Shown: positions 16,747-55,145 of the stretch, piece after piece
Layout: each line of letters opens with the position of its first letter
Numbering within the stretch: position 1 is the first letter of the stretch
Source: a virus
IMG/VR virus record: IMGVR_UViG_3300047554_000764
Span: 1 to 57,139 of that record
Strand: one strand, 5' to 3'
DNA length: 57,139 bases
Made by a program: the position numbers and the translations under genes
The notes under the pieces: generated by a model
The model's database searches: none
What the model was told of the DNA's origin: nothing
The model's input: only the letters and a program-made list of their open reading frames with translations

Positions 16747-17286
16747 ATGACTACAATGAAGAAATTAACCAACATCACAGCAACGGCACAAGGTCTTGTG
16801 TCTTTTGACAGCAAAGGTAACGCTCACATGGAACGTTATGCTAAAACATTTCAATCTAAATCAGATTACAAGCCAAAACACATCGCACAAACAAGTGAAA
16901 ACTTGGAAAAATATCATCTGAACATGATACAAAGACAAATGTTCAGACGTTTGATGTATGGATTGAAAGAGTATAATCCAGAGCAAATTGCTGCATTATC
17001 TCCTTCTTCAATCAGCAAGATTGTTGAAGACTACAAAAAAGCCAAAAGAGCTTTACACATTATGAAAGCTAAAAAGTATTATTATGCTGAAAACAAGCTT
17101 CTTAATGCAATCTTTCCAACATTCAATCTTGGTTCAAAAGATCATGATTGGTTTTTAGAATTACCTAAAAATGTCACTCTGCGCAGTCTAGGGATTTCTA
17201 CAAAAGAAGTAGTAGATGAGTTTATTAAACGTAAACTCTTACCAAAGAATTTCCATCACTTATCAATTCAAAATGTAAATCTCTAA
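16747..17286 (+). CDS. Hypothetical protein, first gene of a regulatory operon
   Basis: 179 aa, strongly basic in the middle (KKAKRALHIMKAKKYYY), helical, no cysteine motif. M1 or M4 are possible starts. It is followed with a 1-nt overlap by a 107-aa protein and then a winged-helix protein, so the operon at 16747-18316 looks like a DNA-binding/regulatory or replication-initiation unit. No family recognised. Confidence 0.68.
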   Translation: MTTMKKLTNITATAQGLVSFDSKGNAHMERYAKTFQSKSDYKPKHIAQTSENLEKYHLNMIQRQMFRRLMYGLKEYNPEQIAALSPSSISKIVEDYKKAKRALHIMKAKKYYYAENKLLNAIFPTFNLGSKDHDWFLELPKNVTLRSLGISTKEVVDEFIKRKLLPKNFHHLSIQNVNL

Positions 17287-17609
17287 TGACCAACACACTA
17301 GAAAAAGCTGAGTCTATCAAATATGGTGGACTCAGCAATTCTGAAATCATGGTTGTCTATTATCGCTTTAAAAAGTATATAGATGATCTTGAAGACGGAT
17401 TCAGCAAAAATCAAGTATCCAAAACTGTGAACACACCCATGGGTAGAGGCACAGCAATCATGCAAGTATCAGACGAGCATATTCAAAAGTTTAAATCTAC
17501 TGAATATTACCAGTTGTCAAAAGCAGTTGTTGCAAAACTTGGGCCCATTGTGGAGCTTTTACAAGAATGTGATGACACTTTTAAACAACTAGCAGATGAA
17601 CTACGGTAG
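17286..17609 (+). CDS. Hypothetical helical protein
   Basis: 107 aa, helical with an acidic C-terminus (LLQECDDTFKQLADELR). It starts on a TAATG-type overlap with the previous stop, and its last 14 nt overlap the HTH gene, so all are translationally coupled. No family recognised. Confidence 0.65.
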   Translation: MTNTLEKAESIKYGGLSNSEIMVVYYRFKKYIDDLEDGFSKNQVSKTVNTPMGRGTAIMQVSDEHIQKFKSTEYYQLSKAVVAKLGPIVELLQECDDTFKQLADELR

Positions 17610-17889
17610 AGTAAACAATGTTGTGTGCTATTCTGAATTGATTTCTTTGGAAGCAAAAGGATTGTACGCAATAATTTGCTCTCTTTGTGGGAACAAGGAT
17701 TATTGTTTCCCCGCAGTATCTACATTGTCCAAAATGTCTGGAAAAAGTAGAGCAACTGTACATCGTCTTCTCAAAGAATTATCAGACAAAGGAGTTATAC
17801 AAAGGCTGTATAACCCAACACAAAGGAAAACCATCACCTACAATTTGATGGATAAAAGTAAAATTTCTAAAAACCAAAACAATGAGTAA
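17596..17889 (+). CDS. Winged helix-turn-helix protein (HTH_36-like)
   Basis: 97 aa. LEAKGLYAIICSLCGNKDYCFPAVSTLSKMSGKSRATVHRLLKELSDKGVI, read in parts, is the standard replication-type winged helix seen in DnaD-like and RepO-like proteins: a first helix, the CFPA turn, recognition helix SRATVHRLLKEL and wing. A basic tail follows. It probably binds DNA as a repressor or as an initiation factor. Its place in a three-gene unit with two basic helical proteins fits replication initiation, though the polymerase genes are 20 kb away. Confidence 0.78.
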   Translation: MNYGRVNNVVCYSELISLEAKGLYAIICSLCGNKDYCFPAVSTLSKMSGKSRATVHRLLKELSDKGVIQRLYNPTQRKTITYNLMDKSKISKNQNNE

Positions 17890-18316
17890 AGAATCAATTT
17901 TAAAGAAGTTATCTGATCTTGAAGATCAAAATTTAAAGTTTAACGAGCATGTTTTAATCTGTATTGAAGCAGATGACAATGGTATTCCTGTTGGAAGTGC
18001 TGTTAAAGTGAAAGGTACGCCTTACATGACACTTGGTATGATTGATCTTGCAATGCATAAGTTGCAAGAAGCGCGTGATTCCATTCTTGACAAGTTTGAA
18101 ACTGTTGAACAAGCTTCACGTGCAATAAATGAGTTGCCAAAAGACGTTGTTGACAAAATCAGAAAGTTTGAAGAAGAAGCACGTGATGCTATGCAGCGTG
18201 GTGATATTGCAAAACTTGAGCAATTGAAAGATGAAGCTAAGAACCTTCTTGGTTTAGACATGGATGATGAAAATCGTGATGAAAGTGGTTTCAATATCAA
18301 TGACTTTAAAGGATAA
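17882..18316 (+). CDS. Acidic helical protein, unknown
   Basis: 144 aa, pI clearly acidic. Short beta N-half (HVLICIEADDNGIPVGSAVKV), then long helices (FEEEARDAMQRGDIAKLEQ) and a flexible acidic C-terminus. It starts with an 8-nt overlap on the HTH gene, suggesting the two act together, perhaps as a DNA-binder and its acidic partner. Followed by the triple-palindrome control region. No family recognised. Confidence 0.68.
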   Translation: MSKESILKKLSDLEDQNLKFNEHVLICIEADDNGIPVGSAVKVKGTPYMTLGMIDLAMHKLQEARDSILDKFETVEQASRAINELPKDVVDKIRKFEEEARDAMQRGDIAKLEQLKDEAKNLLGLDMDDENRDESGFNINDFKG

Positions 18317-18331
18317 TATATAGAGAGACGA

Positions 18332-18432
18332 GTCTCATGGGTGAGACCCATGAAATTTGTTCGCTTTCTCTTTATATTCTTCTCTTTACTTATATCTCAT
18401 TGGTGAGACGGGTTATGTCTCACTGGTGAGAT
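18332..18432. promoter_or_regulatory. Three-copy palindromic operator-like cluster
   Basis: Three copies of RTCTCA-NNGG-TGAGAY: GTCTCATGGGTGAGAC at 18332-18347, ATCTCATTGGTGAGAC at 18394-18409 and GTCTCACTGGTGAGAT at 18417-18432. The 5-bp arms TCTCA/TGAGA are identical in all; only two centre bases vary. They fill the 158-nt gap before the gene at 18475. Spacing between starts is 62 and 23 nt. Likely operators, or RNA stem-loops. Confidence 0.65.
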
Positions 18433-18474: not shown

Positions 18475-19059
18475 ATGGGAGTAGACATTTATGGCATAAG
18501 TCCAAAATTGACTGAACAAATGCCAGAATTACCAGATAATTATGAAGAATTATCAGAAGAACAAGTCTCTGCTTATTGGACAATGCGCAATGATTGGGAG
18601 CAGTCAAACCCTGGTTTTTACTTTAGGAATAACTGGTGGCACTGGCGTCCTATTCAAATGCTTATTACAGTGTTCAATGAAGTTTATCAAATGCACATTC
18701 CAGAAGAAGAAATTGCAGCTCTTGGAAGCAATGGAGGTGGTGGAGTCAAAGACAAGGGTCATTGTGAACAATTAGCAACTTACTTTAAAGAGTTTGCTGC
18801 AAAAATGCGCAATGATGGTCAAGAAATCATCTTTTTAAACACTGGATGGTGGCATTTTAAGGACAAAGACTTGAATGGTGGTAAAGCCATTGAAGACAAT
18901 GAACTTGTTGAAAAATTAAATGAAAAGTATCCTGGGTTATTCTTTGAAGCGCCAACTCTTAATGGAGTTGACTATGAAGCATCTCATGAAACAAATGTTG
19001 ACAATTTAGAAGAGTTTGCTCTTTTTTTAGAAAACTGTAATGGTTTTGAAATTCATTAA
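18475..19059 (+). CDS. Conserved-looking hypothetical protein
   Basis: 194 aa, acidic and Trp-rich. It opens MGVDIYGISP and contains FYFRNNWWHWRPIQ, a pattern I know from uncharacterised bacterial and phage proteins. A GGGGVKDKGHC loop and a helix follow, then FLNTGWWHFKDKD. No catalytic motif is certain. It is the first gene after the triple palindrome and 25 nt upstream of the MoxR ATPase, so it may be part of the MoxR/VWA module. Confidence 0.72.
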   Translation: MGVDIYGISPKLTEQMPELPDNYEELSEEQVSAYWTMRNDWEQSNPGFYFRNNWWHWRPIQMLITVFNEVYQMHIPEEEIAALGSNGGGGVKDKGHCEQLATYFKEFAAKMRNDGQEIIFLNTGWWHFKDKDLNGGKAIEDNELVEKLNEKYPGLFFEAPTLNGVDYEASHETNVDNLEEFALFLENCNGFEIH

Positions 19060-19084
19060 TTAAAAATTTAAAAAACAAATCAAG

Positions 19085-20371
19085 ATGATCCTATTACAAT
19101 CATTCATTAGTGGAACTAGTTATCAAGTAAGAACTCTTCCAAGACAATCTTTTGAGAAATCTTTGACGCGTCATATTGACGATATGAAGATTACTTCTCC
19201 TATTGCAGAATTTGCAAAATTTCCTTTAGGTACTGTGTTCATCACTGATGGATATGATTTTCCTGAAGATGACCACTTACACATTCGTAAAGAAAATGTT
19301 GTAGCTGTATGTTACGAAGGAACAGTGTTTCCAATGTCACATGTAGAAAAAGATCGCTTACAAGCAATTGCTGATTTTACTGTCAATTACATGATTGACA
19401 GCGATGACTTTGGCATTGAAAAAGCAAAAAACATGGCAGAGCAATTTGCATCTTATGGTTATGAATATGACTGGGATGCTATGGTTGCTCCAAAGCCTAC
19501 TGAAGCTGGTGAGTTACCGTCAGGTATTAATCTAAAACGCACTATTGCAGCAAATTATCCAGTACCATCTGTTGATGATTGTGGTTTCCACATTGATCCA
19601 GATATGTGGTTCTTGCTTGTGAGAAACGTGTTACGTGGAGAAAATACATTGTTGATAGGCCCAACAGGTTCAGGTAAAACAGAAATTGTATCTCACCTTG
19701 CTATGGCAATGGAAAAAGATATGCATATCCAAGACATGGGTACTGTTCAAGATGCTCAATCAGCATTATTGGGCGTTCACCGTTTGAATAAAGAAGGTCA
19801 CTCATCATTTGAGTTTGCTCCTTTTGTAAACAATATTCAATCAGGTGGCATCATGTTGTTGGATGAGCTTAACCGTTCACCTCTTGCTGCAAATAATATC
19901 TTGTTCCCTTGTTTGGATAAAAGACGTTATTTACCAGTAGATATTGCATGTGAAGATTGTGATCGCAAGATTCCTGTAAATGAGAACACTGTGTTCTTTG
20001 CAACAGCTAACCTTGGTTCTGAGTACTCAGGCACACATTCAATTGACCGTGCATTGTTGGACCGTTTCTTTCCAATTGAATTAGGTTATCCAACAGAAAA
20101 GGATGAGATCAATGTATTAAAATTACGTACTGGTATTGATGAGAAAGCTGCAACTGCAATTGTACGTGTGTCTAATGAGATACGCAAGCAATACAAAGAG
20201 CAAGAACTTTCTACACCAGTTTCTGTACGTCATACTATTCAAGCTGCAAGCTTAATTGCAGATGGCTTTGATGTTGATAAAGCGTTGCTTGCTACTATCA
20301 TGCCATTGTTTGAAGATGGTATTGGTGTATCAGAACGCAGTAAAGTACTTTCAATAGTATCAGCATTTTAA
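19085..20371 (+). CDS. MoxR/CobS-type AAA+ ATPase
   Basis: 428 aa. Residues 1-160 are a separate N-terminal domain without known motifs. The AAA+ core has Walker A GPTGSGKT (192-199), a MoxR-type insert, Walker B MLLDELNRS (257-265), sensor 1 FATANLGSEYSG and an arginine pair in DRALLDRF (about 325-332), then a C-terminal lid with STPVSVRHT. MoxR ATPases work with a VWA partner as metal-chelatase or chaperone machines; the VWA protein follows 85 nt downstream. CobS/CobT of cobalt chelation is the closest textbook pair. The phage target is unknown. Confidence 0.88.
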   Translation: MILLQSFISGTSYQVRTLPRQSFEKSLTRHIDDMKITSPIAEFAKFPLGTVFITDGYDFPEDDHLHIRKENVVAVCYEGTVFPMSHVEKDRLQAIADFTVNYMIDSDDFGIEKAKNMAEQFASYGYEYDWDAMVAPKPTEAGELPSGINLKRTIAANYPVPSVDDCGFHIDPDMWFLLVRNVLRGENTLLIGPTGSGKTEIVSHLAMAMEKDMHIQDMGTVQDAQSALLGVHRLNKEGHSSFEFAPFVNNIQSGGIMLLDELNRSPLAANNILFPCLDKRRYLPVDIACEDCDRKIPVNENTVFFATANLGSEYSGTHSIDRALLDRFFPIELGYPTEKDEINVLKLRTGIDEKAATAIVRVSNEIRKQYKEQELSTPVSVRHTIQAASLIADGFDVDKALLATIMPLFEDGIGVSERSKVLSIVSAF

Positions 20372-20401
20372 AGTTGAATAGGATCAACTACGTGACATTA
20401 A

Positions 20402-20430
20402 GAGGAGAGTGTAACAGCTCTCCTTTTTTG
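20402..20430 (+). terminator. Rho-independent terminator between MoxR and VWA genes
   Basis: GGAGAG and CTCTCC with an 8-nt loop, followed by T6. It separates the ATPase from its VWA partner, so part of the transcripts stop here and the ATPase can be made in excess. Confidence 0.75.
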
Positions 20431-20456
20431 TCACAAATATTTAAAAAACTGTGACA
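20429..20456 (+). promoter_or_regulatory. Inverted repeat overlapping the VWA start codon
   Basis: TGTCACA (20429-20435) and TGTGACA (20450-20456) form a perfect 7-bp dyad that ends on the A of the start codon. It could be an operator or an mRNA hairpin that hides the initiation region. Confidence 0.4.
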
Positions 20457-22330
20457 TGAGCAAATTAGTAAAAGATTGGTTTAATCGTAGAGCAGAAGAC
20501 GCGTATACTTTCCAAGATGATAGTAAACGTTTCTTTAGCTGGGATAAAGGAAGAGATTCATACTCTTCATACTTTATCAAAAATGACAATACACTCAAAG
20601 AGGCAGCCAAAATGGTAGGCTCAATGTTTAGAGTTATTGGTGTACCTAAAACTTTTAAGTACACAAATGACATTCAAAGTGCTTCAAGGTCAAGTGATAG
20701 AACTTCTGTTCAAGTCCCTCTTAGCATGTTACGTGATGAAGATGGAAACTATCTTGATAATGATAGTCAACTTCTTGATGCTTTCTATGGTGCTGCTATT
20801 CAGAATGCATGTTTAGCTTCAATGCAAACAACTGCTGAATATCAGAAAACAATGATGGCACGTAACACATCAAAAGGTAACACTACTGTTAAAGACTTGT
20901 TGCTTAGTGTTCTCAATACAGAACGTATTGATAAAAAACTTGCAGATCGTCTTCCAGGTTATCTAAAATTTGTTCAGAAGTTTAAAGAACATAAATATGA
21001 AAACTGGGAAAGTCCTGGTGTAGAAGCTCCAAAACAAAAACGTCTTCTTGATCTTGTTGTAAAAATGTTGCGTTATCCTGCAAACATTACAGAAGAAGAT
21101 ATGGAAGATTTTGGTGAACCATTAAAAGCTATGGAACGCTTGCTTAAAAAGCATGGTGGTATTCCTGCAGATTTTGATGGTTGTGGAAGTATGGCAACCA
21201 GTCTTTCTAACATTGTCTATAAATATGTAGATAAAGAAGAAGAACCTCCAGGTGGTGGCGGTGGTGGAGAAGATGAAGATGAATCTGATGAATCAGATGA
21301 AGGCAAGTCTCCTGGAAAACCAAAACCAGAAATGAGTAAGAGTGAACTTAATGATTTTGCAAAAGAAATGATGGGTTCACTGATTAATCCAGAAGAAGGT
21401 ACAGGTTCTGATGAAGACTTCATGAATGAATTTGAAGATTTTCTTGATGACATGGATGAGAATGCATCTCCTAAAACAGATTTTGATTGGGAGAATGATG
21501 GTTCAGCGTCACAAGGAAATGTTTATTTCAAAAAAGCTGAAGTAAATGAGCATGCAAAAGATCGTTATAGAAAAGCTTTATCAAAAATTGATACAACAAA
21601 AGCTGCGGTATTGCAAAAATTGTTTGCTCGTAAGAGTAAAAACTATGAATTTGCAATGAAATCTATGCGTTCTGGTAGACTGGATACAAACAAGATTGCA
21701 GAAGCTGCACAACAGGTTCCAACAATCTATGAACGTATGGGTCAAGTTACCACAAGCAAAGTTTGCGTTGGCGTTCTCATTGATGAGTCTGGTTCTATGG
21801 GAGGATCTAAAATTGAAAAAGCAAGAGAAGCTGCAATTTTTATTAATGAAGTTTTCAAAAAGATGCCAGATGTAGAATTATTTATCTATGGTCATACTGC
21901 AGATACCACTAATACTGGTTCTGTTGATATGATGGTTTATCGTGAAAAAGGATTCATTACTGATTCATTTGCTCTTGGTTCTGTAACATCTCGTGCAAAC
22001 AACAGAGATGGTGACGCAATTTTTGCAAGTGCAAAACGTATGCGTGGTCAGACAGAGAATCAAGGATTGCTTTTTGTTTTATCAGATGGTGCTCCTTCAG
22101 CATATGATTATGGTGGAAGAAGTGCAATTGAAGACACTCGTAAGAAAGTTATGAGAGCTCAATCACTTGGATTCCAAGTAATTCAAATTGCAATTGAAGA
22201 GCATGTTCCTTCTAGAGAAATGTTTGATTACTTTATCAAAATGACAGATATCGCCAATCTTCCAAAAGAATTGGTTGCTTATATGTCCCGTAAAGTAGAC
22301 AAGCTTATCAAAGAAAAAGTAACTGTTTAA
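20456..22330 (+). CDS. VWA-domain protein, CobT-like partner of the MoxR ATPase
   Basis: 624 aa. N-terminal ~250 residues helical, then a polyglycine and Asp/Glu/Ser-rich linker (about 262-345), then a C-terminal von Willebrand A domain. The metal-ion-dependent adhesion site reads DESGS at 443-447, with further elements at about 480 (IYGHTADTT) and LSDGAPS (about 541). An acidic linker before a VWA domain is the layout of CobT and of CoxE/BchD-like proteins, which bind metal and the AAA+ ring. It should work with the ATPase just upstream, inside the cytoplasm. A tip role in remodelling a host protein complex is also possible. Confidence 0.85.
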   Translation: MSKLVKDWFNRRAEDAYTFQDDSKRFFSWDKGRDSYSSYFIKNDNTLKEAAKMVGSMFRVIGVPKTFKYTNDIQSASRSSDRTSVQVPLSMLRDEDGNYLDNDSQLLDAFYGAAIQNACLASMQTTAEYQKTMMARNTSKGNTTVKDLLLSVLNTERIDKKLADRLPGYLKFVQKFKEHKYENWESPGVEAPKQKRLLDLVVKMLRYPANITEEDMEDFGEPLKAMERLLKKHGGIPADFDGCGSMATSLSNIVYKYVDKEEEPPGGGGGGEDEDESDESDEGKSPGKPKPEMSKSELNDFAKEMMGSLINPEEGTGSDEDFMNEFEDFLDDMDENASPKTDFDWENDGSASQGNVYFKKAEVNEHAKDRYRKALSKIDTTKAAVLQKLFARKSKNYEFAMKSMRSGRLDTNKIAEAAQQVPTIYERMGQVTTSKVCVGVLIDESGSMGGSKIEKAREAAIFINEVFKKMPDVELFIYGHTADTTNTGSVDMMVYREKGFITDSFALGSVTSRANNRDGDAIFASAKRMRGQTENQGLLFVLSDGAPSAYDYGGRSAIEDTRKKVMRAQSLGFQVIQIAIEEHVPSREMFDYFIKMTDIANLPKELVAYMSRKVDKLIKEKVTV

Positions 22331-22334
22331 CATA

Positions 22335-22366
22335 GTCAGGTGGTGATAACCTCATCACCTGATTTT
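22335..22366 (+). terminator. Rho-independent terminator
   Basis: GGTGAT and ATCACC with a 6-nt loop (extended by TCA/TGA with a bulge), followed by TTTTATTTTT. Ends the VWA transcript. Confidence 0.75.
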
Positions 22367-22378
22367 ATTTTTATTATT

Positions 22379-22627
22379 ATGAAAATGCATAATTACATTA
22401 TTGCAATTGTATGGTTGATAACTGTAGTCGCAATACTAGAACTTTTAGACTTGGCGTTCTATCTAATGAATAGGTCAAGTGACATGGCGTTTTACGCAGG
22501 ATTGGTCATTGCAACAGCATCATTTTTAATTGCAATAAGACTTTCTGTGTTTTTAGCTGGTGAAGCTTATGTAGCTTACCAAAAGTATTTTAAGAAACAA
22601 TCAAAAACCAAAACAAAGAAAAAATGA
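22379..22627 (+). CDS. Two-pass small membrane protein
   Basis: 82 aa from the ATG at 22379; the frame reaches 22340 but that start lies in the terminator stem. Two hydrophobic helices (about 6-28 and 39-64) and a very basic tail (KKQSKTKTKKK) facing the cytoplasm. It overlaps the SPFH gene by 4 nt (ATGA), which suggests the two are partners in the membrane, as NfeD-like proteins partner SPFH proteins, although no NfeD domain is seen. Confidence 0.68.
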   Translation: MKMHNYIIAIVWLITVVAILELLDLAFYLMNRSSDMAFYAGLVIATASFLIAIRLSVFLAGEAYVAYQKYFKKQSKTKTKKK

Positions 22628-23484
22628 ACAATTTTATTATGAAAATCGCTTTTGCGGTTGTAGGTGTATTTGCCTTATTTGTATTTATGGCAGGATGTGA
22701 GCGTATTGATGCTGGACATGTTGGTGTAAAAGTTAACCTTTATGGTACAGGAAAAGGAGTTGATGATGTTACAGAAGTAACAGGAATGGTGTTTTACAAT
22801 CCTTTTTCTACAAAAATCATTGAATTCCCAACTTTTGTACAACATAAAGAGTACAAACAAGTAATTGAAGATGGAAAAATTGTATCTGATGAATCATTTG
22901 TAGTAAACTCAAAAGATGGATCAGAATTTCATGTTGCTCCTATTGTAAATTATTCAGTAAAACGTGAGAAAGTACCTTACATTTTTTCTAAGTATCGCAG
23001 AAGCTTAGATGAAATTGAAAATGGTTTTCTGAAAACTGCTATTTATGATGCATTTCGTCTTGTAGCTAACTCTTATCCTGCAGATGCTTTGATTTCTAAT
23101 CGTGAAGAGTTTGAAATTAAAGTACGTGCTGTCTTGGAAAAGCAATTGTTACCTGAAGGATTTATATTAGCGCAGTTTACATCTAATCTTGCTTACCCTG
23201 AAACATTTAAGAAAGCAATTGAGGCTAAGAACAATGCTGTTCAAACAGCTTTGACAGCTGAGAATCAGGTTAAAACTGCTGAAGCAGAAGCTAAAATTAA
23301 AATTGCAAAAGCTGAAGGTAATGCTCAAGCAATGTTGACAACAGCAAAAGCTGAAGCTGAAGCAAATAACTTAAAGCAAAAAACTTTGTCATCTATGTTG
23401 TTACAACAACAATGGATTGAGAAATGGGATGGAAAGCTTCCAGTGTATGGAACTGCTCCACAAATGTTTAAATCTGTAAATTAA
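22624..23484 (+). CDS. SPFH/prohibitin-like membrane protein
   Basis: 286 aa. N-terminal hydrophobic segment (about 6-23) ending FMAGC, which could be a lipobox or simply the end of an uncleaved anchor. A Band-7/SPFH domain follows (RIDAGHVGVKVNLYGTG, then SFVVNSKDGSEFHVAPIVNYSV). After it comes a long Ala/Glu/Lys coiled coil (about 195-260), typical of prohibitin and HflK/C. Such proteins form large ring or cage assemblies on the inner membrane and control proteases or membrane domains. The neighbours are AAA+ machines and a coupled membrane protein. Phage SPFH proteins may blunt host protease or defence action; this is inference. Confidence 0.85.
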   Translation: MNNFIMKIAFAVVGVFALFVFMAGCERIDAGHVGVKVNLYGTGKGVDDVTEVTGMVFYNPFSTKIIEFPTFVQHKEYKQVIEDGKIVSDESFVVNSKDGSEFHVAPIVNYSVKREKVPYIFSKYRRSLDEIENGFLKTAIYDAFRLVANSYPADALISNREEFEIKVRAVLEKQLLPEGFILAQFTSNLAYPETFKKAIEAKNNAVQTALTAENQVKTAEAEAKIKIAKAEGNAQAMLTTAKAEAEANNLKQKTLSSMLLQQQWIEKWDGKLPVYGTAPQMFKSVN

Positions 23485-23489
23485 TAATT

Positions 23490-23520
23490 AAGCCCTGATG
23501 TAAAAGTCAGGGCTTTTAAT
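23490..23520 (+). terminator. Rho-independent terminator
   Basis: AAGCCCTGA and TCAGGGCTT form a perfect 9-bp stem with an 8-nt loop followed by TTTAATTTTT. Nearly symmetric. Ends the SPFH transcript. Confidence 0.85.
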
Positions 23521-23530
23521 TTTTACAATA

Positions 23531-23872
23531 ATGGAACAAAAGTATATACAAGAAGCAGGTTCAGGAATTGTTTGTGACAATCCTGATTGTAATTATGAAG
23601 ACATGACTGTGTCTCATACAGAACTTGACAAATGGTTGAATAAACCATGCCCTAAATGTGGTGAAAATTTACTCACTGAAGAAGATTTTAAAAATCATTC
23701 AAAGTTAATGGCAACTATCAACTTACTAAACAGCATGTCTGAAGAACAACTTGAAGAGTTTGGTAAAATGTTAGACATTGAAGTAAAGATTGATGCAAGC
23801 AAATCATCAGAAGAAAGAAAAACTGTTCAGTTCCATGTACATAATGGTATTGACATTAAAGTAATTAAATAA
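23531..23872 (+). CDS. Zinc-ribbon protein, unknown
   Basis: 113 aa. CDNPDC (16-21) and CPKC (about 40-43) make a zinc ribbon in the N-terminal third. The rest is a helix and a beta hairpin ending FHVHNGIDIKVIK. Next gene is the AAA+ ATPase at 23896 (23 nt). A small adaptor or nucleic-acid-binding role is plausible. Confidence 0.68.
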   Translation: MEQKYIQEAGSGIVCDNPDCNYEDMTVSHTELDKWLNKPCPKCGENLLTEEDFKNHSKLMATINLLNSMSEEQLEEFGKMLDIEVKIDASKSSEERKTVQFHVHNGIDIKVIK

Positions 23873-23895
23873 TTCAAGATCCTAAACAACTAAAT

Positions 23896-25137
23896 ATGAA
23901 AAAATTACTTTGGGCTGGAAGCTCATCAAACATTAGTAAAATAACAGGAAGTGACACACATGATCATATTCCTCAAGGGGTGTGGGAATTAAAACTATCA
24001 ATGATGGGTCCATACTTACAAAAAGTTTCTGATGATTTTAACTTTGGTCATAAAATATATGGGCTTGAAGAAGACTTTATCAAATACACTAACCAGAGTT
24101 TTCAATTAGCAGAGAAAAACATGGGTATCTTGTTAAATGGATTGAAAGGATGTGGTAAAACTGTCACTGCAAAAATCATTGCAAATCGTTGTGAATTACC
24201 AATTATCATTATCAATTCAGATAACATTGACTCTTTAAGCTATTTCAATGATGTGACACAGTCTTTGTGTTTCATGTTTGATGAGTTTGAAAAAATCATT
24301 GATCATAAAGATACTGCACGCATTGCTCCATTACTTTCTTTTGTAGATGGTACAATCACCTCAGCAAAACATTTGATGATATTTACATCAAATGACACAA
24401 ATATTTCAGAGTTCTTTATTGATCGCCCTGGACGCATTCGCTATATCAAGAATTATGGTTCTTTAAGTATTGATACTGTTAAAGAAATCATTAATGATAA
24501 ACTTGTGTATCCAGAATTCAAACAAGAAATTATTGACTGGGTTATGTTTTTCAGGTTCTTGACTATTGATATTCTCATGTCTGTTATCAATGAAGTTAAC
24601 ATTCATAGAGTTGGACCTGCGAAGTTTAAATCTTTCTTTAATGCTGATAATGATAAACCAAGTTATGATGTAATGTTTAAACTTACACATCCTGAAACAG
24701 GACAAATTATAGAGTTTGAATATGATTCAATACTTGATTATTCACCAGCAGATTTCTTTGAGAACCTGATTGACCATGATACATCATTCCGTGTTAATGG
24801 ATTCCATGGACACATTGATGCAAAAACTGGTGATGTCATTAGTATTTCTGACAACTATGCACGTAGTTGTTATTTGAATTATGTTGATGAAGTATTAGAA
24901 GAACTTGAAGAAAATGTCTACAAGTGTCTTGTTGGTTTAGATATTAACCATCAAGAAAAAATATCATTACTAAGACGTGATGGTGAAGAAACAGATGTAG
25001 AAGTAAAAAGAAAAGCTAAAAAGATTATTCTTACAGCTGATAAAACTTCTTTCATTGAAGAAAATGTTATTTACAATTGTGAAATGACATTCAAAGCACG
25101 TCCTTTGTACAAAAATTATAGTACTTACGCATTTTAA
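23896..25137 (+). CDS. AAA+ ATPase, BCS1/ClpX-like core
   Basis: 413 aa. A ~70-residue N-terminal part, then Walker A NGLKGCGKT (81-89), Walker B LCFMFDEFEK (124-133), sensor 1 FTSND (about 158) and arginines in DRPGRIRY (about 170-177). This block resembles the classic AAA core of BCS1-like and proteasome-like ATPases. A C-terminal ~200 residues with beta content is of unknown type. Second AAA+ machine of this region after the MoxR ATPase. It could remodel proteins together with the zinc-ribbon protein before it. Substrate unknown. Confidence 0.82.
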   Translation: MKKLLWAGSSSNISKITGSDTHDHIPQGVWELKLSMMGPYLQKVSDDFNFGHKIYGLEEDFIKYTNQSFQLAEKNMGILLNGLKGCGKTVTAKIIANRCELPIIIINSDNIDSLSYFNDVTQSLCFMFDEFEKIIDHKDTARIAPLLSFVDGTITSAKHLMIFTSNDTNISEFFIDRPGRIRYIKNYGSLSIDTVKEIINDKLVYPEFKQEIIDWVMFFRFLTIDILMSVINEVNIHRVGPAKFKSFFNADNDKPSYDVMFKLTHPETGQIIEFEYDSILDYSPADFFENLIDHDTSFRVNGFHGHIDAKTGDVISISDNYARSCYLNYVDEVLEELEENVYKCLVGLDINHQEKISLLRRDGEETDVEVKRKAKKIILTADKTSFIEENVIYNCEMTFKARPLYKNYSTYAF

Positions 25138-25148
25138 AACACATAACT

Positions 25149-25640
25149 ATGAGCAGTAAAGTTCGTTTCATTGCAGATCTACATTTTGGTCATGAAAACA
25201 TGGCAAAAAAAAGAGGATTTGCAAATGCTGAAGAGCATGATGAGTTTATCATCAAACAATGGAATAATACTGTTTCAAAACGTGATGTTACTTACATTCT
25301 TGGAGATATTTCAATGGAAAAGAAAAGCCCTTATCACTTGCTTTCACGTCTCAATGGCGTGAAGCATGTGGTTTTGGGTAATCATGATCGTCATCAAGAT
25401 GTAGCAGAACTATTGAAACATGTGCATAGTGTTTCTGGTATGATGAAACACAAAGGTTTTTGGCTAACCCATTGTCCTGTACACCCATTTGAACTTGAAA
25501 GAGTTTATGGTAATATACATGGACATGTACATGAAAATGTAATAAATGAGCCAAAGTATTACTGTGTATCTTGTGAGAACGTTAATTACACACCAGTTAC
25601 ACATGAAGAATTGAATATTAAAATCCCAACTAAAGAATAA
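25149..25640 (+). CDS. Calcineurin-like metallophosphoesterase
   Basis: 163 aa, the short YfcE/MJ0936-like form. Metal-binding motifs in order: D10-x-H12 in IADLHFGH, GD at 52-53, GNHD at 77-80, H108 in THCP, and GHVH at 125-128. All residues for a dinuclear metal centre are present. Substrate could be a nucleotide, cyclic nucleotide or nucleic-acid end. It ends with a TAATG overlap on the radical SAM gene, so the two are co-translated and might act in one repair or signalling pathway. Phage enzymes of this fold can also degrade host alarm nucleotides. Confidence 0.9.
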   Translation: MSSKVRFIADLHFGHENMAKKRGFANAEEHDEFIIKQWNNTVSKRDVTYILGDISMEKKSPYHLLSRLNGVKHVVLGNHDRHQDVAELLKHVHSVSGMMKHKGFWLTHCPVHPFELERVYGNIHGHVHENVINEPKYYCVSCENVNYTPVTHEELNIKIPTKE

Positions 25641-26497
25641 TGGAACAAGTAATTAGAAAATCAATGCTTATACGTGAGAGTGGCAGAAGTACAGACTTTA
25701 TATCACCAAGCTTTGGGCATGGTTGTCTATTTAATTGTACTTACTGTTATATGAAACGTCATAAAGCTGAAGGTTTGGATATTGCTACAAATGCAAATCA
25801 AATTTTGACAGAAATAAACAATCATAGTTGGTTTGCTACAATTGAAAAACCAAATCAAACTCATGAAAAGTTTATTACTTATGACATATCATGCAATGAA
25901 GATTTTGCCTTGCATTTGAAGTATCATAAATGGAAATACATTTTTGATTTCTTTAAACAAAGTGAAGTTGCCATGGGTTCATTTGCCACAAAGTATGTAA
26001 ATGAAGAACTTCTTACGTATAATCCAGAAAAAAAGATACGTATAAGATTTTCACTCATGCCTCAAAAGTATGCTGATTTATTGGAACCAAATACAACTAA
26101 AATCTTTGATAGAATAAAAGCTATTAATGAATTTATTGAAGCTGGTTATGATGTACACATTAACTTTTCACCTGTGATTGTAACAGATGACTGGTTAGAA
26201 CAATACAGAATGTTATTTGAAGGTGTAGATGCTCTTGTAGATAGAAAGTATAAAGATCAAGTAAAAGCTGAAGTTATCTTTTTAACACATAATCGCGATA
26301 AGCATTTCTATAATTTAGAAAACAATCTTAAAGGTGAAGAATTACTTTGGAATCCAGATATTCAAGAAGACAAAACATCTCAATATGGAGGATTAAATTT
26401 ACGCTACAAGCATGAACTTAAGTCTCAGTACATTGATAAGTTTACAGAACTACATGATGAAATTATACCTTGGAATAAAATCAGATATATTTTTTAA
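25640..26497 (+). CDS. Radical SAM protein, spore photoproduct lyase-like
   Basis: 285 aa. The cluster-binding motif is C29-x3-C33-x2-C36 in GHGCLFNCTYCYMKRH. SPSFGHGC before it and the TYCYM after it resemble the SplB group that splits thymine photoproducts, and the length is close to short members. SAM binding is probably via the strand after FITYDISCNED. The enzyme would use a 4Fe-4S cluster and SAM, in the anaerobic cytoplasm. Repair of UV-damaged phage DNA is the most likely job, but substrates in this superfamily vary widely. Directly coupled to the metallophosphoesterase gene. Confidence 0.82.
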   Translation: MEQVIRKSMLIRESGRSTDFISPSFGHGCLFNCTYCYMKRHKAEGLDIATNANQILTEINNHSWFATIEKPNQTHEKFITYDISCNEDFALHLKYHKWKYIFDFFKQSEVAMGSFATKYVNEELLTYNPEKKIRIRFSLMPQKYADLLEPNTTKIFDRIKAINEFIEAGYDVHINFSPVIVTDDWLEQYRMLFEGVDALVDRKYKDQVKAEVIFLTHNRDKHFYNLENNLKGEELLWNPDIQEDKTSQYGGLNLRYKHELKSQYIDKFTELHDEIIPWNKIRYIF

Positions 26498-26948: not shown

Positions 26949-27081
26949 TGAGGTAATGAGAGGCAAAACAATTGTCTGACACTAGCAAAATCGTGACAGC
27001 TTGGAAAGACAAGCAAATAGTCAGGTAGCACCTTATTTGTGCGATATTGTAAAAATGCAGGTTTGATTCCTGTCCTGACTA
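26947..27081 (+). tRNA. Aberrant tRNA-like element (anticodon not assignable)
   Basis: The 3' part is tRNA-like: T stem CAGG/CCTG around TTTGATT, then CCTGACT and a free end ACAA. CCTGACT pairs perfectly with AGTCAGG at 27019-27025, giving a 63-nt mini-tRNA with one GCAC/GTGC arm and no room for a normal anticodon arm. AGTGAGG at 26947 pairs with one mismatch, giving a 135-nt form that includes the hairpins CTAGTG/CACTAG and GCTTG/CAAGC. Either is atypical. Confidence 0.35.
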
Positions 27082-27325: not shown

Positions 27326-27451
27326 AGTCAGGTGGCGGAATTGGTAGACGCATGAATAAAGGTTAATAGTAAGGATAACGCAGAGTAACCTTGAAAGACC
27401 CATAAGTATAGCTCATAAGTTATCATACAGGTTCAAATCCTGTCCTGATTA
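27326..27451 (+). tRNA. tRNA-Leu-like element with about 40 extra nt
   Basis: Acceptor AGTCAGG pairs with CCTGATT, the D arm (TGGCGGAATTGGTAGACGC) is a perfect Leu type, and T stem ACAGG/CCTGT encloses TTCAAAT. Between D and T arms are 74 nt where about 32 are expected. This part contains a perfect AAGGTTA/TAACCTT hairpin and a doubled CATAAGT, and no normal anticodon loop can be framed. A short intron in the anticodon arm, or a decayed gene, would explain it. Confidence 0.55.
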
Positions 27452-52519: not shown

Positions 52520-53494
52520 ATGGGTATTTTTGACAAACGTGTGGCATTCAAGCCCTATGAGTATCCTGAAATTATCAAATTCAGAGATGCCATTAAACAC
52601 AGTCGCTGGGATGTAGAAGAGTTTAACTTTGACTCTGATGCATTTGACTTTAAACACAAACTCACAAATGCTGAAAAGGAAGCAATCAAGCGTACTTTAT
52701 TAGCCATCTCACAGATTGAAGTATCTGTGAAGACATTCTGGGCAAAACTTGGTGATCATATTCCTAAGCCAGAATTTAATTCAGTTGGAATTACATTTGC
52801 AGAAAATGAAGTTGTCCATTCTGAAGCTTACTCAAAATTACTAGAAGTACTTGGTTTAAACAATGAGTTTGATATGTTACTGCAGAATCCTGTTATTGGA
52901 GGAAGAGTTGATTATCTTACAAAGTATTTAAAGAACTCTGGTGAAAACGCAAAACAAGTTTACACTCTTAACTTGGCATTGTTCTCAATGTTTATTGAAA
53001 ATGTTTCATTATTTAGTCAATTTGCAATTGTTAAATCTTTTATTGAAAAGAAAAACATGCTTAAAGAGGTTGATACCGTGATTGAAGCAACAATGAAAGA
53101 AGAGATTATTCACGCACAGTTAGGAATGCATGTAATCAATTTAATTAAAAAAGAGTATCCTGAATGGTTTGACCAAGATTTTTATGACAAGATTTACAGG
53201 GCTTGTAAAAAAGCTTTTGATGCTGAAGTAAAAATTATTGACTGGATTTTTGAAGAAGGGACCATTGACAGTGTTTCTAAAGAAGCTGTTATTGAGTTTA
53301 TCAAATCTAGGTTTAACTCATCATTAGTTGCCATTGGTGGCAAAGAACTATTTGAGATTGATCAAGAAGTATTAGGCGAACTATACTGGATGATTGAAGC
53401 AATCTATGGATATGTACGCAATGACTTCTTTAATACTCAAGGAACTAACTACACTAAATTTCAAAAATCTATAACAAGTAAAGACTTATTTTAA
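52520..53494 (+). CDS. nrdB: Ribonucleotide reductase class I, small subunit
   Basis: 324 aa, usual length. Metal ligands of the diiron or dimetal site: E67 in SQIEVSV, E97 and H100 in AENEVVHSEAY with radical tyrosine Y104, E160 in MFIENV, and E195/H198 in KEEIIHAQ. The C-terminal FQKSITSKDLF tail docks to NrdA. It generates the radical that NrdA uses to reduce ribonucleotides. Coupled to nrdA (1-nt gap). A weak promoter (TTTG 52454, TATTTTAC 52480) lies upstream. Confidence 0.95.
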   Translation: MGIFDKRVAFKPYEYPEIIKFRDAIKHSRWDVEEFNFDSDAFDFKHKLTNAEKEAIKRTLLAISQIEVSVKTFWAKLGDHIPKPEFNSVGITFAENEVVHSEAYSKLLEVLGLNNEFDMLLQNPVIGGRVDYLTKYLKNSGENAKQVYTLNLALFSMFIENVSLFSQFAIVKSFIEKKNMLKEVDTVIEATMKEEIIHAQLGMHVINLIKKEYPEWFDQDFYDKIYRACKKAFDAEVKIIDWIFEEGTIDSVSKEAVIEFIKSRFNSSLVAIGGKELFEIDQEVLGELYWMIEAIYGYVRNDFFNTQGTNYTKFQKSITSKDLF

Positions 53495-53495
53495 C

Positions 53496-55145
53496 ATGGC
53501 AACAAAAATGGACTGGTACACCCCCCTCAGTGAAGAATTTATGGGAAGAGGGTATTTTCACAACAACGAATCTATTGAAGATAGAATTGAATCAATTGCT
53601 AATCTAGTTGGCAAAACTTACAATGACAAAACATTAACAGAAAAAGTCAAAGACTACATTGAAAAAGGATACTATGTATTACCATCTCCTGTTTGGAGCA
53701 ATGTAGGAACTGGACGTGGTTCTGGTATCTCATGTTTTAACACCCACATTAGTGATAGTATTGAGTCTATTGTAAAAGCTAATGCTGAAGTAGGCATGCT
53801 TTGCAAAATTGGAGGAGGAACTTCTGGTTATTTTGGCGATTTGCGTCCAGCAGGTACAGCAATTTCAACTGGTGGTGAAACTCATGGAGCTGTACATTTT
53901 ATGCAAATGTTTGATGTTACAAAAAATGTAATTTCTCAAGGTAATGTAAGACGCGGTGAGTTTGCTGCGTATCTAGATATTACTCATGGTGATATTAAAG
54001 ATTTTTTGAGAATCAATGGTGAAGGGCATAAACTACAGCGTTTTCCTTTTGGAGTTTGTGTAAATGACAAATGGCTTGAAGAAATGAAAGCTGGTGATAT
54101 GGACAAGCGTGAACTTTGGGCAATGGTAATTGACAGTAGAAACAGAACAGGATTCCCTTATATTTTCTTTTCTGACAACGTTAATAACAATACTGTTGAT
54201 GTATATACAGATACAGAAGCCCGCATCAATTCTTCTAACATGTGTACTGAAATTTTACTTCCTTCTACTGAAGAAGAATCATTTGTGTGTGATCTTGTTG
54301 GAATGAACCTTGTCAAGTTTGATGAGTGGAAAGACACAGATGCTGTTAGAATTGCTGTTTATATTGCAGATGCTGTACTAGAAGAATTTATTCAAGCTTA
54401 TTCAAACAAACCTTTCATTGAACGCGCAATACGTTTTGCCAAAAGACATAGAGCTATTGGAATAGGAGCATCAGGATATCACTCATACTTGCAAAGTAAA
54501 ATGATTCCTTTTGAGTCTATGGAAGCAAAAATGACAAATAACTTGATCTTTAAAACAATTCAAGATCAAGCTTGGGCTGCGTCAGCTGAAATGGCTGAGA
54601 AATATGGTGAGCCTGAAGTTTTAAAAGGATATGGAAGACGTCACACAACATTGACAGCTGTGGCTCCTAACACATCTTCTTCTTTCATCATGGGTCAACA
54701 GTCACAAAGTATTGAACCATATACAAGTAACTACTACATCAAAAAGACAGCAAAAGTTAAGCATGCTGTAAAGAATCCTTATCTTAAAGAACTTCTTGCT
54801 GAAAAAGGTAAAGATACTATGGAAGTATGGGAATCAATTTTACAAAAGGCAGGAAGTGTTCAACACTTGTCCTTTTTATCAGAAGATGAAAAACTTGTAT
54901 TCAGAACTTTTATGGAAATTTCTCAGATGGAAATTATTATTCAAGCTTCAACTCGTCAAAAATACATTGACCAGGGTCAAAGTTTGAACTTGATGATTCA
55001 CCCCCAAACTCCTACTAAAGATATCAATACTTTGTTGTTAAAAGCTCATGAACTGGGAATCAAAACTTTGTATTACCAGTTAGGACAAAACGCAGCACAA
55101 GAATTTGCAAGAGATATTCTTTCTTGTGAATCATGTGCAGGATAA
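53496..55145 (+). CDS. nrdA: Ribonucleotide reductase class I, large subunit
   Basis: 549 aa, shorter than host NrdA (about 750) because the N-terminal ATP cone is absent; allosteric activity control is thus probably lost. Catalytic residues: C80 in ISCFNT, N248-M-C250-T-E252 (thiyl radical Cys and partners), C265 in SFVCDL, YY near 520 in TLYYQLG, and C-terminal CESCAG as the redox pair that takes electrons from thioredoxin. Works with NrdB to make dNDPs. A hairpin follows. Confidence 0.95.
   Translation: MATKMDWYTPLSEEFMGRGYFHNNESIEDRIESIANLVGKTYNDKTLTEKVKDYIEKGYYVLPSPVWSNVGTGRGSGISCFNTHISDSIESIVKANAEVGMLCKIGGGTSGYFGDLRPAGTAISTGGETHGAVHFMQMFDVTKNVISQGNVRRGEFAAYLDITHGDIKDFLRINGEGHKLQRFPFGVCVNDKWLEEMKAGDMDKRELWAMVIDSRNRTGFPYIFFSDNVNNNTVDVYTDTEARINSSNMCTEILLPSTEEESFVCDLVGMNLVKFDEWKDTDAVRIAVYIADAVLEEFIQAYSNKPFIERAIRFAKRHRAIGIGASGYHSYLQSKMIPFESMEAKMTNNLIFKTIQDQAWAASAEMAEKYGEPEVLKGYGRRHTTLTAVAPNTSSSFIMGQQSQSIEPYTSNYYIKKTAKVKHAVKNPYLKELLAEKGKDTMEVWESILQKAGSVQHLSFLSEDEKLVFRTFMEISQMEIIIQASTRQKYIDQGQSLNLMIHPQTPTKDINTLLLKAHELGIKTLYYQLGQNAAQEFARDILSCESCAG

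Follow-up and report, generated by a model that had tools for sequence, protein, structure and literature searches.

The closest described systems to the locus analysed here are the pairs of a MoxR-type AAA+ ATPase and a VWA-domain protein known as NorQ-NorD and CbbQ-CbbO. For NorQD, it has been proposed that a finger of the VWA protein sits in the pore of the ATPase ring, that the energy of ATP hydrolysis goes into a twist of the VWA domain relative to the N-terminal domain, and that the metal ion-dependent adhesion site (MIDAS) is placed on the target (PMC13036017, PMC9976466). Many tailed viruses carry CobS/CobT-like genes, which are commonly filed under vitamin B12. A role of CobST in cobalamin has been proposed for tailed viruses (PMC8651126), and a role in assembly has been proposed for the MoxR-vWA pairs of group 2.2 jumbo phages and of Acidianus two-tailed virus (PMC7824862). 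Here, such a pair is analysed in a 57-kb IMG/VR virus record (IMGVR_UViG_3300047554_000764; all 57,139 nucleotides, hereafter the window), for which a preliminary description had proposed that a MoxR ATPase, a VWA protein, an SPFH protein and a second AAA+ ATPase form one protein-remodelling system (18475-25137). Our comparison with related viruses makes it fairly probable that the functional unit is the MoxR AAA+/VWA remodelling pair and not the whole block. The phage MoxR-VWA ('cobST') pair is of an already known kind, with clear boundaries and a well-supported candidate regulator. Gene content and terminator-like hairpins set the pair apart from the genes around it, a candidate regulator and an operator matched to it can be named together with three possible partners, and in the respects tested nothing ties the pair to B12, so that the role of viral MoxR-VWA pairs becomes testable.

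The MoxR-type AAA+ ATPase (19085-20371, plus strand) carries AAA_5 and CbbQ_C domains, the latter (PF08406) matching with 43.6 bits at a cut-off of 20.6. In profile comparisons Midasin scored highest, followed by NorQ (88.8 bits), CbbQ (70-72) and CobS (39.9), and residues 187-412 align with residues 38-256 of NorQ. Among 27 sequences, down to 35% identity, the Walker A residues G192, T194, G195, G197, K198 and T199 are invariant, as are the Walker B residues D260-E261, N309 and R322/R327, and the conserved stretch after Walker A appears from the alignment to run through the helix 2 insert region of NorQ. In two relatives the gene is split by a group I intron, at about residue 195 within Walker A (L087, 9687-9965) and at about residue 264 just past Walker B (L093, 10774-11073). 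Phage group I introns typically occupy conserved sites of important genes, and the position of these introns at conserved sites of MoxR therefore fits an important gene; a literature search for group I introns in phage MoxR genes found nothing relevant.

The VWA partner (20456-22330, plus strand) comprises an N-terminal helical domain, an acidic linker, a putative finger and the MIDAS. The finger (residues 397-433; 21644-21754, plus strand) is predicted as a hairpin in the place of the NorD finger, in which strands at 397-403 and 425-433 would flank a short helix, and residues 406-420 form the most conserved 15-residue block of the protein, with the MIDAS block (436-450) a close second. The DxSxS motif of the MIDAS, DESGS (residues 443-447; 21782-21796, plus strand), is invariant in sets of 31 and 33 sequences, and D544 is also invariant. 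The structural model of the protein best matches the VWA domain of NorD in NorQD (E=4e-9) and then the MIDAS domains of Midasin, and among viral models it aligns with many viral CobT-like proteins. At the level of sequence, a CobT_C domain is found (PF11775; 43.5 bits, cut-off 21), and among solved sequences the protein scores best to CobT. The phage locus shares with NorQ-NorD and CbbQ-CbbO the MoxR ATPase with CbbQ_C, the adjacency of the two genes, the fold of the VWA domain as judged by the best model match, and a partner in which an N-terminal domain and a linker are combined with a predicted pore finger and a MIDAS. In contrast to those systems, its third MIDAS ligand is Asn and not Thr, it has the core genes described below and not an enzyme operon, and no nor or cbb genes were seen nearby. 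The earlier suggestion of protein remodelling is supported to the extent that MoxR and VWA can be read as a remodelling pair driven by ATP.

Relatives of VWA and MoxR were collected (about 60 viral loci), open reading frames were called, and iterative profiles were made for 14 neighbouring families. Across these loci the fixed unit consists of three small genes, MoxR and VWA, and the order 16747-17286-17882-MoxR-VWA is kept in nearly every relative locus that covers the region. Core gene 1 (16747-17286, 179 amino acids) lies 5' of MoxR in nearly all covering relatives, and core gene 2 (17286-17609, 107 amino acids) is co-conserved with MoxR-VWA; Pfam and PHROG searches with both gave no match. 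Core gene 3 (17882-18316, 144 amino acids; all three on the plus strand) encodes a candidate client or adaptor whose acidic C-terminal tail, FNxxDF-KG, is found in 36 of 57 homologues though the body of the protein diverges, and as a guess this tail might serve as a ligand of the MIDAS. Two distant gut phages have retained only MoxR and VWA of all the families. Since the three upstream genes are co-conserved in this phage family and absent from those two phages, they may be family-specific clients or merely stable neighbours.

The remaining genes of the block, namely the Trp-rich gene, the membrane protein-SPFH pair, the zinc ribbon and the second AAA+ ATPase, vary independently; the last three lie outside the MoxR-VWA machine, and phosphoesterase and radical-SAM genes are likewise independent cargo. 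When co-occurrence was counted in the 42 loci whose sequence extends 3 kb or more past VWA, 6 had SPFH alone, 5 the second AAA+ alone, 3 both and 28 neither, and cargo differed even between close relatives whose MoxR proteins are about 90% identical. Whole-record searches of the window and 25 related records, which may be incomplete, found SPFH in 8 of the 26 records and the second AAA+ in 3, and several relatives of nearly 120 kb lack both. Phage records matched numbered 656 for SPFH, 354 for the second AAA+, 66 for MoxR and 1 for the Trp-rich gene. A terminator-like hairpin (22334-22364, plus strand; 13 pairs, then a T-rich tail) directly follows VWA, and we therefore place the probable end of the transcription unit there, with the membrane protein and SPFH genes probably outside it, as read from the sequence; a second such hairpin (23490-23515, plus strand), directly 3' of SPFH, closes the membrane protein-SPFH cassette. 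When the 90 bases after VWA were folded and hairpins of about -14 kcal/mol or better near the stop were counted, 50 of 61 loci had a terminator-like hairpin directly 3' of VWA, with very different stem sequences. That MoxR, VWA, SPFH and the second AAA+ form an integrated system for membrane-protein remodelling or counter-defence, as the preliminary description had it, would agree with the adjacency of all block genes in the window and in the relatives L005 and L006. Nevertheless this idea is highly improbable, as SPFH and the second AAA+ are distributed separately, terminator-like hairpins divide the parts, and SPFH with its membrane partner occurs elsewhere without MoxR or VWA. Independent distribution in relatives, which the preliminary description had itself named as refuting its proposal, was found for SPFH, the second AAA+, the zinc ribbon and the Trp-rich gene, a search with defence-system models (PADLOC) gave no specific match that would speak for counter-defence, and a single block was rejected on gene distribution and hairpins.

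According to the published view (PMC8651126), the pair would be the CobS and CobT subunits of a cobaltochelatase that works with a host CobN and supplies more cobalamin for nucleotide synthesis. With CobS-CobT the phage pair does share the CobT_C domain, the best sequence match of VWA among solved proteins, the order of AAA+ then VWA and an Asn at the third MIDAS position; in addition, MoxR belongs to a PHROG family labelled 'porphyrin biosynthesis', and the contig of one relative (L063) encodes an adenosylcobalamin-dependent ribonucleotide reductase above the curated cut-off. We nevertheless consider a cobalamin role unlikely, because CobN was found in 0 of the 26 records, a host copy being possible, and because MoxR-VWA is retained irrespective of whether a relative has a class I reductase, a class II reductase or no large chain that could be detected. 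Moreover, the MoxR profile is nearer to NorQ/CbbQ (88.8 bits to NorQ versus 39.9 to CobS), no other cobalamin genes were seen, and the reductase of the window itself is class I with alpha and beta subunits; besides the L063 contig, several other relatives show a similarly weak class I-type domain match, suggesting the same divergent large chain as in that contig, and in some none was detected. Metal chelation for cobalamin had already been thought less likely from the window, and the lack of CobN bears this out. As an observation in its own right, the class of ribonucleotide reductase switches within the phage family, from class I in the window (52520-55145) to B12-dependent class II in L211 (337-2283). 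A virion assembly chaperone, with a protein of the tail or head as the client to be folded or processed, would be a special case of the remodelling pair. The published precedent of phage and archaeal-virus MoxR-vWA pairs (PMC7824862) favours it, and the retention of the pair by every relative is what an important step would predict. We hold this role to be possible and yet doubtful, as the pair lies among the rightward replication genes, whereas portal and terminase are on the opposite strand at the left end, and no structural gene is adjacent. The viral 'cobST'/MoxR-vWA pairs of both publications (PMC8651126, PMC7824862) are of a like kind, but an N-terminal peptidase domain was not recognised in the window pair, and neither the winged-helix/operator switch nor the three small genes co-conserved with the pair were found outside this phage family.

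Upstream of the Trp-rich gene lies a cluster of three palindromes, of which operator 1 (TCATGGGTGA inside GTCTCATGGGTGAGAC) is at 18335-18344, operator 2 (TCATTGGTGA) at 18397-18406, 62 bp from operator 1, and operator 3 (TCACTGGTGA) at 18420-18429, 23 bp from operator 2. The window contains 5 matches to the pattern TCAYNGGTGA where 0.78 would be expected, with the cluster at 18335, 18397 and 18420. Across loci the cluster contains 2-4 palindromes with fixed spacings of 62-63 and 23 bp, plus 22 bp where a fourth exists; the pair spaced by 23 bp occurs exactly once in 8 of 22 records (the window and 7 relatives) and not in the rest, and a reversed control pattern gave zero matches. The operator cluster noticed in the preliminary description is thus real, occurring once per cluster-bearing genome as judged by the 23-bp pair, but that it is common to the block is doubtful: since terminator-like hairpins follow VWA and SPFH, it probably serves only the Trp-rich gene, MoxR and VWA, the later genes lying past the hairpins. 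Between operators 1 and 2, a T/C-rich element (18365-18392, plus strand), present as a single copy in the window and kept in relatives, is a promoter candidate; a sigma-70 promoter scan found no more sites than in shuffled sequence.

The candidate regulator of the cluster is a winged-helix DNA-binding protein (17596-17889, plus strand; HTH_36, PF13730, E=3e-12), which probably binds the three palindromes before the Trp-rich gene. Operators were present in 21 of the 26 loci with the winged-helix gene and in 0 of the 36 without it. One relative (L031) has operators and the winged-helix gene and no detected Trp-rich gene, so that the cluster follows the winged-helix gene and not the Trp-rich gene; assignment to the latter was rejected also on account of 10 loci that have the Trp-rich gene and neither operators nor winged-helix gene. 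The half-site base beside the TCA core is C in 6 of 6 arms of the window and 6 of 8 arms of L063, whereas the 112 arms of the other loci all have G or T there; the recognition helix reads SGKSR in the former two and SGKSK elsewhere. Base and helix residue thus covary, C being found in 12 of 14 arms with R and 0 of 112 arms with K, counts in which the arms come from few lineages, only two of them with R, and are not independent samples. Because the window MoxR groups among K-type relatives, the two R cases look independent in sequence comparison; a deeper search for the winged-helix gene gained no further lineage.

By analogy with NorQ-NorD, MoxR would assemble as a hexameric ring on which one VWA protein docks with its beta-hairpin finger inside the pore, and ATP hydrolysis would rotate the VWA domain relative to the N-terminal helical domain. 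A single client might be gripped by both parts of the VWA protein, with the MIDAS holding it through an acidic residue, and so be twisted or released. This client would probably be a phage protein co-produced with the pair, the upstream core genes being the first candidates and the 17882 protein above all. Expression would be set by a dedicated switch in which the 17596 protein probably sits on the palindromes in the manner of a repressor, and the transcript probably ends after VWA. We put forward only tentatively the wider proposal that this is a self-contained, separately regulated machine whose client is one of its own co-conserved small proteins, best the 17882 protein, which its acidic FNxxDF tail would deliver to the machine, and that the widespread viral 'cobST' pairs are misnamed remodellers of an important viral step. 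Several observations weigh against the remodelling pair as drawn here. The third MIDAS position is an invariant Asn516, where NorD has Thr and the aligned CobT has Asn; the VWA model is of moderate quality (predicted local distance difference test, pLDDT, 74.6; predicted template modelling score, pTM, 0.48), with low confidence at the finger tip; 11 of the 61 loci have no clear hairpin after VWA; and, besides the few lineages behind the arm counts, 5 divergent loci have a winged-helix relative and no operator cluster, a search of this group for another inverted-repeat cluster having found none that was clear.

Regarding the cargo, open reading frames and domain matches agree with the seven genes that had been listed for the block. 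The Trp-rich protein (TrpR; 18475-19059, plus strand, 194 amino acids) is an optional operon member, and HTVC023P is the only annotated phage with a relative of it. Its model is very confident (pLDDT 93.8, pTM 0.85) and possibly represents a new fold; a search of solved structures with the model gave no match (best E 0.74), and the attempt to read a function from the fold was therefore dropped. The small membrane protein (22379-22627, plus strand), whose ATG at 22379 is the likelier start because the GTG at 22340 falls within the hairpin after VWA, is half of a separate cassette with the SPFH/Band 7 lipoprotein-like protein (22624-23484, plus strand; phrog_200). In 68 viral loci outside this phage family with a close SPFH, MoxR or VWA was found in none within the flanking DNA covered, and in most of these loci a small membrane gene lies directly 5' of SPFH, so that the pair forms a two-gene cassette of its own; this cassette (22379-23484) recurs in many large phages and is flanked in the window by the two terminator-like hairpins. 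A deep unit of MoxR, VWA, membrane protein and SPFH was also rejected, since the genes after VWA in Bacteroides phage BS162P1 are similar in size to the membrane protein and SPFH genes and unrelated to them; SPFH was not found in the BS162P1 record. The zinc-ribbon protein (23531-23872, plus strand) is independent cargo, and its gene sits 5' of the core in several relatives. The second AAA+ ATPase (23896-25137, plus strand; phrog_2376), likewise independent cargo, shows an AAA domain only and no peptidase match.

Among more remote systems, Midasin/Rea1 matches with both its AAA+ unit and its MIDAS domain but is a single giant eukaryotic chain. HflK/HflC-FtsH resembles the block in that an SPFH protein adjoins a small membrane protein; it differs in its FtsH-type peptidase, which was not found here, the second AAA+ being AAA-only and unlinked to SPFH in relatives. 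As for MoxR-vWA ternary conflict systems, the bpMoxR profile gave 16.2 bits, below the cut-off of 27, and no domain of a third component (VMAP, iSTAND, FtsH or beta-propeller) was present in the neighbours scanned. A match to IetA of IetAS-type defence was confined to about 55 residues at the P-loop, and no other scanned protein matched a partner model.

The window is probably a fragment of a larger phage genome, because its long relatives are mostly metagenome contigs of 97-136 kb, and these metagenome relatives suggest that it may be of freshwater origin. The minus strand of the window encodes portal and terminase at the left end, and the plus strand carries genes for helicases, a primase, a DNA polymerase and a class I ribonucleotide reductase. 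The listed gene starts are preceded by A/T-rich sequence in which no clear Shine-Dalgarno motif is seen, BS162P1 and one gut phage have the closest annotated relatives of MoxR-VWA, and further MoxR copies come mainly from Bacteroidales genome bins; for these reasons the host is likely to belong to the Bacteroidota. Further downstream, two tRNA-like Rfam matches (27326-27451 and 27019-27081) were not called by ARAGORN, one of them having 126 bases with a large insertion. Directly 3' of the block, a radical-SAM protein of the spore photoproduct lyase family (25640-26497), frequent in relatives, is possibly a UV-damage repair gene.

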